Source: a virus. From it: a stretch of DNA of 51,150 nt. The position numbers and the translations under genes were made by a program. Shown here one piece after another: positions 34,894 to 49,296 of the stretch; the stretch's first letter is position 1, and the number at the start of each line of letters is the position of its first letter. The stretch spans positions 1-51,150 of the IMG/VR virus record IMGVR_UViG_3300042373_000168; one strand, 5' to 3'. The notes under the pieces were generated by a model. The model was not told where the DNA came from. It saw nothing but the letters and a program-made list of their open reading frames with translations, and made no database searches.

Positions 34894-34921
34894 TTGATAC
34901 TAACAATGTTAGGCTTATTTT
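34894..34921 (+). promoter_or_regulatory. Rightward promoter with palindromic operator in the spacer
   Basis: -35 TTGATA (34894-34899), 16-nt spacer, -10 TATTTT (34916-34921). The 13-bp palindrome CTAACAATGTTAG occupies 34,900-34,912, directly after the -35 and inside the spacer, where a bound protein would block RNA polymerase. The first rightward gene starts at 35032, so the leader is about 105 nt. Confidence 0.6.
34900..34912. repeat. 13-bp palindrome, exact copy 1 (promoter spacer)
   Basis: CTAACAATGTTAG: arms CTAACA/TGTTAG around one central base. Non-coding copy inside the rightward promoter. Confidence 0.9.
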
Positions 34922-35031
34922 CGCTTACAAAAAACAATGCGAATTTAATCTAATCGTGTTACATTTAAATCACTGAAACGGCGCAACATTGTTTCGGTAC
35001 TCTTAACTACTTAACTCTAAGGATGATCAAA

Positions 35032-35589
35032 ATGGAAAACGTCAAGAATGTAAGCACCGCCCCCGCCCCTGTCGCAGTAGCAATTCCGCTGAGCGTGATC
35101 GAAGCACGCAACGCTCTCGTCAAGGCTGAGACTAAATCGTACGGCGCGCGCATCACTTACGCTGTCGAGTTGAATAGCATGGCCGGTTCCGCTTGGTATC
35201 GTGACGGCGCGGAAAAGGTTGTCAGCATCGAGGCGGAGAAAGCTAACCTGTACGCGGCATTGAAGAAAGTTGGGCATAGTAACCCGTCGAAGGTATGGGG
35301 CGACATTAAGAAATACGCATTGATTGATGCGCAGGAAAAGGGTTTATTCGGCGAGACTAAGCCCGTCGATGGCGAAGGCGAAGGCGAAGGCGAATCAACC
35401 GGCGGAGCAAATGCAAATGCACCGCGCCCGCTGCAGCTTCGCTTAGTCGAGGAATTGACTGCTCTTTATAAAGTGTGTGACAAGGAAAAAGCGTTTCTTA
35501 CTGATCAGCAAAAGGCAGCATCGCTCTGCATCACGAAAGCGCTGGAATCGTTGGGCGTTAATCTCGGCCTGATCAAAACCGGCAAATAA
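35032..35589 (+). CDS. First rightward gene, unknown function
   Basis: 185 residues from ATG 35032, chosen because AAGGA lies 8 nt upstream; an ATG at 35023 overlaps that Shine-Dalgarno and is rejected. The N-terminal two thirds are mixed alpha/beta (VIEARNALVKAETKSYGARI, ELNSMAGSAWYRDGAEKVVS) with a Trp-containing segment (PSKVWGDIKKYALIDA). A short acidic-Gly linker (DGEGEGEGES) leads to a helical C-terminal domain (LQLRLVEELTALYKVCDKEK). As the first gene after an operator-controlled promoter it is probably early and well expressed. I do not recognise the family. Confidence 0.75.
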   Translation: MENVKNVSTAPAPVAVAIPLSVIEARNALVKAETKSYGARITYAVELNSMAGSAWYRDGAEKVVSIEAEKANLYAALKKVGHSNPSKVWGDIKKYALIDAQEKGLFGETKPVDGEGEGEGESTGGANANAPRPLQLRLVEELTALYKVCDKEKAFLTDQQKAASLCITKALESLGVNLGLIKTGK

Positions 35590-35596
35590 TCAACGA

Positions 35597-35614
35597 GCGG
35601 GGCGAAAGCCCCGC
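35597..35614 (+). promoter_or_regulatory. Strong RNA hairpin after the first rightward gene
   Basis: GCGGGGC-GAAA-GCCCCGC, a 7-bp GC-rich stem with a GNRA tetraloop, 8 nt after the stop codon. It is followed directly by a 13-bp palindrome rather than by a U tract, so it is more likely an RNA-stabilising or pausing element than an intrinsic terminator. Confidence 0.6.
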
Positions 35615-35627
35615 CTAACAATGTTAG
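35615..35627. repeat. 13-bp palindrome, exact copy 2
   Basis: CTAACAATGTTAG abutting the 7-bp hairpin, 9 nt before the start of a 27-residue gene. With flanking bases it is a 15-bp palindrome. Confidence 0.9.
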
Positions 35628-35635
35628 GTTATCAA

Positions 35636-35719
35636 ATGAAAAACTACGGATTTGAAATTCTCGCCACAATCTACTGCGCCGTGATGCTGTACTGCGCCGT
35701 CCTGATGATGATTATTTAA
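35636..35719 (+). CDS. 27-residue membrane peptide
   Basis: A short reading frame with AGG about 8 nt upstream of its ATG: MKNYGFEILATIYCAVMLYC then AVLMMII. Nearly the whole peptide is one hydrophobic segment, so it would insert in the inner membrane. A strong terminator follows 19 nt after the stop, so the peptide and the preceding gene form a two-gene unit. Function unknown; very short genes carry a real chance of being spurious. Confidence 0.45.
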   Translation: MKNYGFEILATIYCAVMLYCAVLMMII

Positions 35720-47611: not shown

Positions 47612-47781
47612 AAGCGTTTCCAAACATGGCGGGTCAGCAGGGCATGGACTTGCGCGATTACTTTGCGGCGAAGGCGATGCAAGCTTACTTAACTGGCGAT
47701 TACGATCTGTACCCAAACGAAGTAGCGGAAAAAGCGTATCAGGTGGCTGATTGGATGATAAAGACGAGGAAAGCCAAATGA
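47608..47781 (+). CDS. Small phage protein of MDLRDYFAAKAMQ type
   Basis: 57 residues: MKAFPNMAGQQGMDLRDYFA then AKAMQAYLTGDYDLYPNEVA and EKAYQVADWMIKTRKAK. The motif MDLRDYFAAKAMQ...A..AY..AD.M is one I recall from many phages; its function is unknown. Start and stop overlap both neighbours (ATGA). Confidence 0.68.
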   Translation: MKAFPNMAGQQGMDLRDYFAAKAMQAYLTGDYDLYPNEVAEKAYQVADWMIKTRKAK

Positions 47782-47936
47782 AAGATTATTCAAACTACGA
47801 AACACAACGAAGCATTTTGATTGAGTACCTGCAAGTAATGATTGCGCGATGCGATTGGCATGGAGTAGCTGACGTAGCCATGGACTTGCGCGAAATGGAA
47901 GCCGAACGCCGCACGATGAAGGAGAAAAACACATGA
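47778..47936 (+). CDS. Small helical protein
   Basis: 52 residues: MKDYSNYETQRSILIEYLQV, then MIARCDWHGVADVAMDLREM and a charged end (EAERRTMKEKNT). It ends in MKEKN, whose DNA carries the GGAG site of the next gene, as also seen at 45,820-45,840 and 46,055-46,076. ATGA overlaps on both sides. Confidence 0.62.
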   Translation: MKDYSNYETQRSILIEYLQVMIARCDWHGVADVAMDLREMEAERRTMKEKNT

Positions 47937-48136
47937 GCGAAATACGTACAGCACGACAAAGCATTATCGACTTCCTTGAGAAGAACAAAGAACTGATGGG
48001 CGGCATCGAAGTGGTGCAGACAATAGACGGTCGAACCATAAATCTGAGCGATATGACTGACGAAGAAGCAGCAGAAGCGGCTGACATTCTTATGGTTGCA
48101 GGTACGCCAACACGTCTAGGCTCGTTAGCAAAATGA
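47933..48136 (+). CDS. Small acidic protein
   Basis: 67 residues: MSEIRTARQSIIDFLEKNKE then LMGGIEVVQTIDGRTINLSD and MTDEEAAEAADILMVAGTPT. Strong Shine-Dalgarno (GGAG) within the preceding gene's last codons. No recognised family. ATGA overlaps with the next gene. Confidence 0.62.
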   Translation: MSEIRTARQSIIDFLEKNKELMGGIEVVQTIDGRTINLSDMTDEEAAEAADILMVAGTPTRLGSLAK

Positions 48137-48324
48137 AGGCGGCTGAAGCTATGGCTGTGGCTTTCGCTATGTGCGTGGCGTTGTTCTCCATTTACTTTGG
48201 TACGAAGGCTGTGACGATGGAGCCGGGAGCACGAAGGCCGCTATGTGGCGTGGCTGAGATTAGCCCTGACATTACGCCGGAAGAACGTAAGAATTGCAGA
48301 GAGATGAGGAGACGTTCTCTATGA
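48133..48324 (+). CDS. Small membrane-anchored or secreted protein
   Basis: 63 residues. An N-terminal hydrophobic segment (AEAMAVAFAMCVALFSIYFG) is followed by a short polar domain with two Cys (LCGVAEISPDITPEERKNCR). It could be a signal anchor with a periplasmic tail. Coupled to both neighbours. The role is unknown. Confidence 0.6.
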   Translation: MKAAEAMAVAFAMCVALFSIYFGTKAVTMEPGARRPLCGVAEISPDITPEERKNCREMRRRSL

Positions 48325-48530
48325 CAGAACAGAAAGTAAGACGGGGGCGTGGACCCGGCAAGCAACCACGACAAGGCATCACGAGCGTGCGCATACCAGT
48401 GTACGTTCTTGATTATTACCGTCAGAACTTCGACAACAGCACAGCAAAGATGCGCGAGGTTCTGGTTAACTATGCAGTAGATAAAGGAGCTAACAATGGT
48501 AAAGAAAGTGAAGAAGGTATTGAGTCCTGA
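48321..48530 (+). CDS. Possible ribbon-helix-helix protein
   Basis: 69 residues from ATG 48321. After a basic N-terminus (VRRGRGPGKQPRQG) comes a strand (ITSVRIPVYVLDYYRQNF) and a helix (AKMREVLVNYAVDKG) that fit a compact ribbon-helix-helix layout. Dimers of this fold bind palindromic DNA, so it is a weaker candidate binder of the repeated site. It overlaps the DUF3310 gene by 35 bp. Confidence 0.55.
   Translation: MTEQKVRRGRGPGKQPRQGITSVRIPVYVLDYYRQNFDNSTAKMREVLVNYAVDKGANNGKESEEGIES
48490..48502. repeat. Degenerate start-codon palindrome (two mismatches)
   Basis: GGAG-CTAACAATGGTAA keeps the Shine-Dalgarno/ATG arrangement of the other cassettes, with the ATG at 48496 starting the DUF3310 gene, but the right arm has decayed. 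Confidence 0.4.
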
Positions 48531-48990
48531 AGCGTTGGAAACTTTACGACGCACCGCAGCATACGCACGACAGGTTCGTCAGGAGAAACGCAAAGAGCGA
48601 GAGCTACGGGGTGAGGCGCATCCATACACACCGCCTAAGCGTAGAAAGAAGAGAACACCTACGACTAAGCAACAAGTCTTGAAGTGGGATGAGATCAAGA
48701 TGCCGATACAGCAAACTATGAAGATGGTGCAAGCGGTTACAAGCGGTAAGTCTGTTCTGTACGCGGACATCCCTCAAGTTACACACTACGCTGCGGCTGA
48801 CATGGTTAACAACCCTGCGCATTACAAAGTAGGCGGTATCGAGACTATCGACTTCATCGAGGCTAAAGGTCTGTCGTATAACTTGGGCAATGTGGTTAAG
48901 TACGTGACTCGTGCCGGGCACAAAGGCAACCGTAAGGAAGACCTTGAGAAAGCACGTTGGTATCTAACCCGAGAGATCGAAGCATCGTAA
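48496..48990 (+). CDS. DUF3310 protein
   Basis: 164 residues. The C-terminal domain (about 100-163) matches DUF3310: MVNNPAHYKVGGIETIDFIE, then AKGLSYNLGNVVKYVTRAGH and KEDLEKARWYLTREIE. It is common in phages and sometimes called a nucleotide-kinase-like protein, without proven activity. The N-terminal half is basic (AAYARQVRQEKRKERELRGE) and may bind nucleic acid. ATG 48496 lies in the degenerate palindrome. Confidence 0.85.
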   Translation: MVKKVKKVLSPEALETLRRTAAYARQVRQEKRKERELRGEAHPYTPPKRRKKRTPTTKQQVLKWDEIKMPIQQTMKMVQAVTSGKSVLYADIPQVTHYAAADMVNNPAHYKVGGIETIDFIEAKGLSYNLGNVVKYVTRAGHKGNRKEDLEKARWYLTREIEAS

Positions 48991-48999
48991 GGAGATGGT

Positions 49000-49296
49000 A
49001 TGTCTGGTACGCCTGAGAGTAAGGTCAAGTTGGCTGTCGTTAAATTGCTTAAGCAATACGGCGTGTATTTCTTTTTCCCCGCAACTCACGGGTACGGACG
49101 CTCAGGTGTGCCAGACATCATCTGTTGTATCGACGGTAAGTTTTTAGCTATCGAGTGTAAGGCTGGAAAGAACGAGCCCACCGCACTGCAACTACGAGAA
49201 ATAAATCAAATACAAGCAGCGGGTGGTATGGCAATGGTAGTCAGAGAAGACCTAACATTGTTAGAATTTTTATTGAAGGAGCTAACGCATGAGTGA
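49000..49296 (+). CDS. VRR-NUC domain nuclease
   Basis: 98 residues, the size of the stand-alone VRR-NUC family. The PD-(D/E)xK core is visible: GVPDIICCIDGKFLAIECKA gives Asp39, Glu52 and Lys54, followed by the conserved LQ in PTALQLREINQIQAAGG. It is an endonuclease of the Holliday-junction/structure-specific type. It lies just before the DNA polymerase gene, so a role in replication or recombination intermediates is likely. A 13-bp palindrome lies at its end. Confidence 0.88.
   Translation: MSGTPESKVKLAVVKLLKQYGVYFFFPATHGYGRSGVPDIICCIDGKFLAIECKAGKNEPTALQLREINQIQAAGGMAMVVREDLTLLEFLLKELTHE
49252..49264. repeat. 13-bp palindrome, exact copy 13 (inside VRR-NUC gene)
   Basis: CTAACATTGTTAG, read in frame CTA ACA TTG TTA. 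The most distal exact copy seen. Confidence 0.9.

Follow-up and report, generated by a model that had tools for sequence, protein, structure and literature searches.

What would a short palindrome be doing in more than a dozen places along one arm of a phage genome, and which protein would read it? The locus that raises this question is the early arm of the window, the whole stretch of 51,150 bases analysed here, which is a single virus record (IMG/VR IMGVR_UViG_3300042373_000168). The left arm of the window contains late genes on the minus strand, including those for terminase and portal, and the right arm contains small genes as well as those for an N4 gp24-like ATPase and a DUF2201/VWA protein. 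We found that the array of 13-bp sites in the right arm is a conserved and selected feature of a large group of uncultivated phages, and these sites are very probably the operators of the protein encoded by the first early-region gene (35032-35589).

The original prediction listed 13 exact copies of the site and four with one mismatch, and a motif scan of the window detected all of them, at the positions given below. It also called for a count against shuffled sequence. With up to two mismatches, 35 strand-wise matches were observed, all of them within 34900-49264 and none in 1-34899, whereas 100 dinucleotide shuffles of the window gave a mean of 1.31 matches and a maximum of 5, and the reversed pattern had no match in the record. 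Chance or base composition as the source of the array was ruled out by these results. An extra two-mismatch copy, CTAACAATGGTAA, was found at 48490, covering a start codon. The site had been described as a true palindrome, and this was correct for its two perfect 6-bp arms, CTAACA and TGTTAG, but one free base stands between them; for this reason, the plus strand reads CTAACATTGTTAG at four of the 13 exact copies. The two orientations of the centre occur nine and four times among the exact copies, unlike an asymmetric, one-way site. The sites are listed here without a strand; L193 and L004 are loci of relatives.

34900-34912: site 1, upstream of the regulator gene, putative distal operator; identical in L193 and at the same position in relatives
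35615-35627: site 2, directly past the stop codon of the regulator gene; identical in L193 and L004
35956-35968: site 3, within the minus-strand gene 35766-36122, from the motif scan
36612-36624: site 4, about 22-34 bp past the inferred transcription start of the 36554 promoter; identical in L193
37019-37031: site 5, shortly ahead of the start of gene 37043-37270
37431-37443: site 6, covering the junction of two genes, with the stop codon of the first and the ATG of the second
37787-37799: site 7, covering a stop codon and the following ATG
38351-38363: site 8, one mismatch; identical in L193
39287-39299: site 9, CTAACAAAGTTAG, one mismatch
40207-40219: site 10, within the ATPase gene, over the codons of SNIVR
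40596-40608: site 11, overlapping the ATG of gene 40602-40808
41757-41769: site 12, within the DUF2201/VWA gene
42796-42808: site 13, within gene 42456-43316; absent from most relatives
43212-43224: site 14, within gene 42456-43316, over the codons of LTMLG
44521-44533: site 15, CTAACTTTGTTAG, one mismatch
46110-46122: site 16, one mismatch
48490-48502: weak site, two mismatches, overlapping the ATG of gene 48496-48990
49252-49264: last site, about 490 bp ahead of DNA polymerase A

The limits of the array were then compared with the prediction that the whole early arm is under its control. The array does lie in the early arm, but that claim was too wide, as the network ends at the DNA polymerase: the last site is at 49252, and the gene for DNA polymerase A (polA), truncated by the record end, starts at about 49750. 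Because the array ends before this gene, only the pre-replication genes of the rightward arm are covered, and not the whole arm. Relatives were taken from IMG/VR via the terminase, the regulator, and the ATPase, two of these three lists being the best 80. In 24 records (the window, G001-G003, G006-G008, G014-G019, G022-G024, and G026-G033), 284 of 289 exact sites preceded polA, and none was found in the late arm of the window or of the 23 related records. In this count, G006 was scored as CTAAC-N3-GTTAG over its first 60000 bases, G007 was scanned over its first 40000, the array of G015, which crosses both record ends, was treated as joined, and G021 and G025, which yielded no polA, were not counted. 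A one-mismatch site lies past polA in G002 (22650), and two-mismatch matches outside the array were found at nine places in five of six relatives. The polA match itself is split in two, with a gap of about 0.8-0.9 kb, in G028 (25076-27912) and G022 (20940-23600), perhaps by an intron, an intein, or an inserted gene.

A palindrome scan that used no prior motif recovered the same arms in G001, G002, G003, G007, and G008, the looser CTAAC-N3-GTTAG in G006, CTAACATGTTAG with no spacer in G013, and the unrelated palindrome GTACGG-N3-CCGTAC in G012. In G005, the same scan picked up a CTCAC palindrome just four times, and it gave no comparable array in G004, G009, G010, G011, DSL-LC04, HTVC023P, HTVC027P, or 023Pt_psg01, the last three being scanned over their first 50 kb. 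The terminase of the window shares 60.0% identity with that of DSL-LC04, 52.9% with 023Pt_psg01, and 51.5% and 48.1% with the pelagiphages HTVC027P and HTVC023P. Two outcomes had been named as counting against a phage regulon, i.e., an equal density of sites in the late arm and a lack of conservation in related phages. Neither was seen: no exact site was in the late arms, the same arms recur in relatives, and the sites within genes are conserved at the synonymous level. Low-copy palindromes in other loci, CTTAC-N4-GTAAG in L059, TGTAGT-N4-ACTACA in L024, and TCTCAC-N4-GTGAGA in L043 and L293, may be further specificities.

The genes and promoters against which the sites were placed are the following:

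35032-35589, plus strand: first early-region gene, 185 aa, the proposed regulator, from its position in relatives, its flanking sites, and its tree against spacer class
39525-40589, plus strand: AAA ATPase, N4 gp24-like, carrying site 10
40805-41983, plus strand: DUF2201/VWA protein, carrying site 12
42456-43316, plus strand: gene without an assigned function, carrying sites 13 and 14
49750-51150, plus strand: DNA polymerase A, cut by the record end, bounding the array
36554-36582, plus strand: strong sigma-70-like promoter TTGACT-17-TATAAT, from the promoter scan
39134-39162, plus strand: strong sigma-70-like promoter TTGACT-17-TATACT, from the promoter scan
34894-34921, plus strand: weaker promoter-like match surrounding site 1, from the promoter scan

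Which protein, then, would recognise the sites? Homologues of the first early gene occupy the start of the array in the motif-bearing relatives. One to three sites were found within 400 bp upstream for 99 of the 112 distinct first-gene proteins, their distances to the gene start peaking at about 120-160 and 0-40 bp; a site was near the stop codon in 95 of 108 cases, and within the gene in six of 119. When 219 loci of at least 5 kb were scored, out of a set of 238 in which some share a contig, an over-represented palindrome was detected in 139 of the 150 with a first-gene homologue and in 33 of the 69 without, the latter group often being fragments. A G-rich stretch (GGGTGGGGGT and similar) was also noticed ahead of the first site, at about 34870-34895 of the window and in relatives, and in an alignment of 81 spacer-1 cases, G was the commonest base (53-67%) at several positions 17-31 bp before that site. 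The first-gene family is represented twice near the array start in 18 of 158 loci, some of them sharing a contig (e.g., L031, L178, L182, L187, L191, and L200).

The spacer between the two arms gave a further test of this link. By distinct first-gene protein, it was 1 bp in 93 cases, 2 bp in 23, 3 bp in two, and 0 bp in one, and it was mostly uniform per locus and different across loci, with the exception of L077, where ten spacer-2 and six spacer-1 sites were found. The first-gene sets of the spacer-1 and spacer-2 loci are homologous (hhalign probability 98.3, E 2.4e-14). On FastTree trees, which carried no assessment of branch support, and with shared loci compared, spacer class changed 1-5 times along the first-gene tree and 4-10 times along the trees of eight other genes: 2 against 6 for the ATPase, 5 against 10 for each of terS and terL, 1 against 6 for the VWA gene, 1 against 4 for gene 42456-43316, 3 against 8 for the zinc-ribbon gene, 2 against 5 for gene 44113-45090, and 1 against 4 for gene 46073-46978. 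The half-sites behaved in the same manner. Loci with CCTACA-N3-TGTAGG carry a more distant homologue of the first gene (hhalign probability 72.5), and loci L283, L285, and L286, with GTACGG-N3-CCGTAC, have a first gene of 262 aa with a site directly before and after it. No homology between this protein and the regulator family was detected (hhalign probability 0.1, three sequences), and the layout of the sites therefore seems to outlast the particular protein. L284, which also has the 262-aa gene, lacks an array, but it ends shortly past that gene, and the palindrome scan gave no array in L294, which carries a relative of the L043 first gene. Site specificity thus follows the regulator in both spacer class and half-sites, as in an operator network read by one regulator. 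The claim that one protein controls the region fared well as far as a single regulator is concerned, which gene position, co-presence with the sites, and spacer co-variation all make probable.

It could be argued that another protein of the arm binds the sites and that the first gene is merely adjacent, given that binding by the first-gene protein is a prediction and that the window encodes a ribbon-helix-helix-like protein on the minus strand (35766-36122). However, a search of 33 other records and loci gave no match to this gene at 1e-4, and its product was rejected as the binder for that reason; moreover, spacer class fitted the first-gene tree better than it did the trees of six further arm families and the two terminase genes. 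We hold a different binder to be very unlikely. The ribbon-helix-helix-like gene contains a site and adjoins a terminator-like hairpin at 35738.

Next, we analysed whether the sites are kept as DNA. In L193 (84% identity where aligned), nine of the ten aligned window sites were identical, against 21.7% of the aligned 13-mers, eight of the 18 sites falling outside this alignment. In the more distant L196 and L004, identical sites were two of four (5.8% of 13-mers) and four of six (8.1%). The residues SNIVR, which site 10 encodes in the ATPase, were written with the exact arms in 42 of 46 spacer-1, nine of 26 spacer-2, and none of three array-less loci, when codon use predicts 0.0025 per spacer-1 sequence. 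In the same way, LTMLG of site 14 was encoded as the exact site in 37 of 38 spacer-1 loci and two of eight others, and ANIVS of site 12 in five of five and none of two, respectively; these three sets of counts ignore kinship among loci. When conserved windows of five residues were ranked by nucleotide identity, the site window was first of 45 in the ATPase gene; in gene 42456-43316 it was second of 11, outranked by a window that overlaps it. The exact window of the VWA gene was too variable to rank, and the overlapping NIVSS window was second of 26 in that gene. Protein constraint as the origin of the in-gene sites was ruled out, with site windows ranking high for nucleotide identity and because other loci use other codons for the same residues. 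In the VWA protein, NIVS was present at the site in 42 of 51 spacer-1 loci, as counted over the listed forms, and mostly other residues, such as GDIIN, in spacer-2 loci, which suggests that this site shapes the protein it crosses. Site 13 (42796) had no such support, being present with at most one mismatch in four of 47 spacer-1 loci. Of the 41 spacer-1 sites left over in spacer-2 loci, 22 were in the tested conserved genes, compared with 102 of 511 spacer-2 sites, and this pattern fits a change of spacer that could not be achieved by insertion inside genes.

The arrangement of the sites around promoters was then determined. Across 80 loci, 227 strong sigma-70-like promoters were found on the early strand inside the arrays. 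A site lay 25-80 bp upstream of the start of the -35 element in 68 of them, most at -70 to -40, and 50-115 bp past it, i.e., at about +15 to +80 of the inferred transcription start, in 159. One or other place was occupied at 205 promoters, against 18.8% for random placement, and only four sites in total were over the promoter itself (bins -30 to +50), so the protein would not act mainly by covering promoters. These promoter-linked places accounted for 226 of 1120 sites, and the other 894 were elsewhere, many inside genes. The two notable strong promoters of the window are at 36554, with site 4 right after it, and at 39134.

The upstream sites would suit a protein that works as an activator or dual switch and turns middle promoters on from 25-80 bp upstream of the -35 element. 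In agreement with this, 68 promoters had a site there, and the last site before polA was 57-66 bp ahead of a strong promoter in G001, G002, G003, G007, and G008. However, those promoters are near consensus and should need no help, and a site within the transcript was found for 159 promoters; we consider such a switch unlikely.

A role in RNA was also weighed, in which the sites form small hairpins over start codons or are the hairpins from which an N4-type virion RNA polymerase would start transcription. Several sites include a start codon, the site can be drawn as a 5-bp stem and a 3-nt loop, and a protein of 2155 aa in G001 has a segment weakly similar to that polymerase. Against this, sites are also present upstream of promoters, the arm sequence and not just its pairing is conserved, each genome mostly keeps to one spacer length, the palindrome lacks the direction that an N4-type hairpin promoter has, and the strong promoters of the array are of the sigma-70 type. 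A function in RNA is, in our view, highly improbable. The search for a phage RNA polymerase with PF00940 gave no match, but its control was likewise silent, and it says nothing on this matter. The 2155-aa protein of G001 (26077-32544; L089:6077-12541) also shows DarB-type antirestriction-like segments and has a PDB match to an internal virion protein.

The sites could alternatively be those of a DNA organiser that acts like MatP on matS and would bridge or condense the early region or hold on to the genome during replication, with secondary effects on transcription. The matS site has a palindromic arrangement. The array is likewise a widely spread 13-bp palindrome, and matS, in the part of the source drawn on here, is a 13-bp target present in 23 copies over an 800-kb domain of the E. 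coli chromosome (PMC3330122). Spacing was more even than random (coefficient of variation 0.64 versus 0.90, with 63 of 70 loci under the random mean), and most sites are distant from strong promoters. Nevertheless, the sites around 205 of the 227 strong promoters, the stop of the array at polA, and the flanking of the regulator's own gene fit gene control better, and an organiser seems rather unlikely. MatP on matS, as that account has it, organises a chromosome rather than controlling genes. Site density within the array was higher toward its start (645 versus 349 sites; 66 of 70 loci).

The reading that we prefer is control of early genes by the first-gene protein. Host RNA polymerase would transcribe the region from a few strong sigma-70-type promoters, and the regulator would be the first protein made. 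It would bind, probably as a dimer because the site is palindromic, to the flanks of its own gene and to the chain of sites across the pre-replication region, with CTAACANTGTTAG / CTAACAATGTTAG as the proposed target. The bound protein would act as a roadblock to the elongating RNA polymerase, shortly after the start and along genes, lowering early transcription and turning down its own gene. Early genes would be shut off in this way, and the DNA polymerase and replication genes past the last site would stay free. We think that this account, with an autoregulated early protein, a roadblock, and early-gene shut-off, is on balance probable. A more far-reaching proposal is offered tentatively, as we doubt it somewhat more than we trust it: virulent aquatic phages would silence their own pre-replication genes through roadblocks every few hundred bases set by the first-gene product, whose family would have a new fold; the array would dictate codons and even residues, and whole arrays would have switched spacer or half-site together with the regulator.

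Several observations weigh against this reading. Five of the 289 exact sites are not before polA: one each is inside polA in G027 and G028, and one each is 0.6-2 kb past it in G016, G018, and G022; two of 511 spacer-2 sites (at most one mismatch) also fall within polA. The general promoter scan of the window gave 11 matches, compared with 14.4 in shuffles, and no clear first promoter was seen there, the match at 34894 overlapping site 1. Some sites are upstream of promoters, where a roadblock would not affect that promoter. The exact spacer-1 site is retained in the nine spacer-2 loci with SNIVR mentioned above, and a tree-aware analysis of site decay against spacer class, made on the ATPase site with three supported independent pairs, was not significant. 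The predicted all-helical fold of the window protein matches no known DNA-binding fold convincingly in Foldseek or VIA. Finally, binding, dimer binding, repression rather than activation, and timing are all inferred from sequence.

The protein family itself was compared with known families and folds. None of 74 spacer-1 members matched a PHROG at 0.01, the Pfam search gave scattered weak matches and none that was meaningful, and the PDB sequence search returned nothing close to the first-gene protein. The models of the window protein (mean pLDDT 83.1, pTM 0.53) and of a spacer-2 protein (pLDDT 80.6) were both mainly helical. VIA scores of up to Z 5.9 for the window protein were taken as common helical arrangements. 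Foldseek gave no convincing match for the spacer-2 protein, and its non-significant rows (E above 4) include several TetR-family regulators. No MatP or ribbon-helix-helix chain was among the Foldseek and VIA matches listed, which does not exclude one. As there was neither a meaningful Pfam or PHROG match nor a convincing fold match, a structure could reveal a new DNA-binding domain.

The mode of life of these phages bears on a further alternative, i.e., that the protein is the immunity repressor of an unrecognised, non-integrating lysogenic state and that the sites are true stoperators, as would be suggested by the resemblance to the working of the L5 array in the excerpted accounts (PMC6550527, PMC9283540). 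The tyrosine integrase PF00589 was found in none of 26 records, and the resolvase PF00239, the ParA-type PF13614, and the ParB-type PF02195 in none of 18 each, with positive controls matched and with some records possibly incomplete; the integrase or parABS genes of a temperate phage of the L5 type were thus not found. Regulator homologues were absent from 50,697 phage records (two queries), from 72,556 plasmids (one query, reaching fairly close relatives), and from genome contigs (two alignments, with a tool that reaches relatives via short conserved stretches). We regard an immunity repressor as quite unlikely. With no integrase or partition gene found and no regulator in plasmids or bacterial genomes, the preferred regulator would be a time switch of lytic growth.

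Two features of the window lie apart from the array. The window shares its ATPase and DUF2201/VWA pair (39525-41983) with N4-like phages, and its terminase belongs to another group. A minus-strand gene of the late arm (12839-13966) is ferrochelatase or 2OG-Fe(II) oxygenase-like.

How does the array compare with known systems? No description of it was found in titles or abstract openings, and the site sequence, in four forms, was unmatched. In paired operators of the GalR type, two sites of a host operon flank a promoter. The first gene of some relatives is similar, with an upstream site and a second site some 50 bp past the transcription start, whereas the chain in the window has a dozen or more. 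The repressor of phiC31, a temperate Streptomyces phage, has a palindromic operator repeated through the early region; this likeness is by description and not by sequence, and the phiC31 inverted repeats are between genes, unlike the present array. In the Bacillus prophage SPbeta, the master regulator MrpR has a 15-bp element, SPBRE, repeated at several places in the genome (PMC10516654). As far as the excerpted source goes, MrpR differs from our regulator in its tyrosine-recombinase fold, in being encoded by a prophage, and in its peaks in promoter regions (PMC10516654), and the window sites are mostly away from strong promoters, with many inside genes. SPBRE with MrpR and the phiC31 inverted repeats appear to be the nearest other arrays, and both belong to temperate phages. 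Operator arrays across transcribed genes are known from temperate phages, where the prophage is kept silent; the present phages carry no recognised lysogeny module, and their array points to early-gene shut-off of a new form. The family supplies natural experiments, as its spacers measure 0, 1, 2, or 3 bp and no fewer than three half-sites each have a first gene to match; with this variety, one can test how DNA is recognised and how whole sets of operators turn over.

The original prediction likened the array to the stoperators of L5. In the portions of the literature drawn on here, these are more than 20 copies of a 13-bp site found genome-wide, in promoters and between genes, which are proposed to stop both initiation and elongation, and site and repressor evolve together (PMC9283540, PMC6550527). 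The L5 repressor Rep is a small phage protein of 183 residues with a helix-turn-helix that binds as a monomer (PMC9283540, PMC6550527), and L5 is temperate, with asymmetric, directional sites (PMC6550527, PMC9283540). Within those accounts, the likeness would hold for function: many copies of one short site, 13 bp in both, run through the phage early region, with one small phage protein in each system. It did not hold for the type of site, its direction, or the temperate lifestyle (PMC6550527, PMC9283540). The window array is palindromic, has many in-gene copies and a spacer that varies between genomes, its regulator is of no recognised family, and no integrase or partition gene was found. Collectively, and by analogy, the array appears to work like the stoperators of L5, yet it is not a member of the L5 system.

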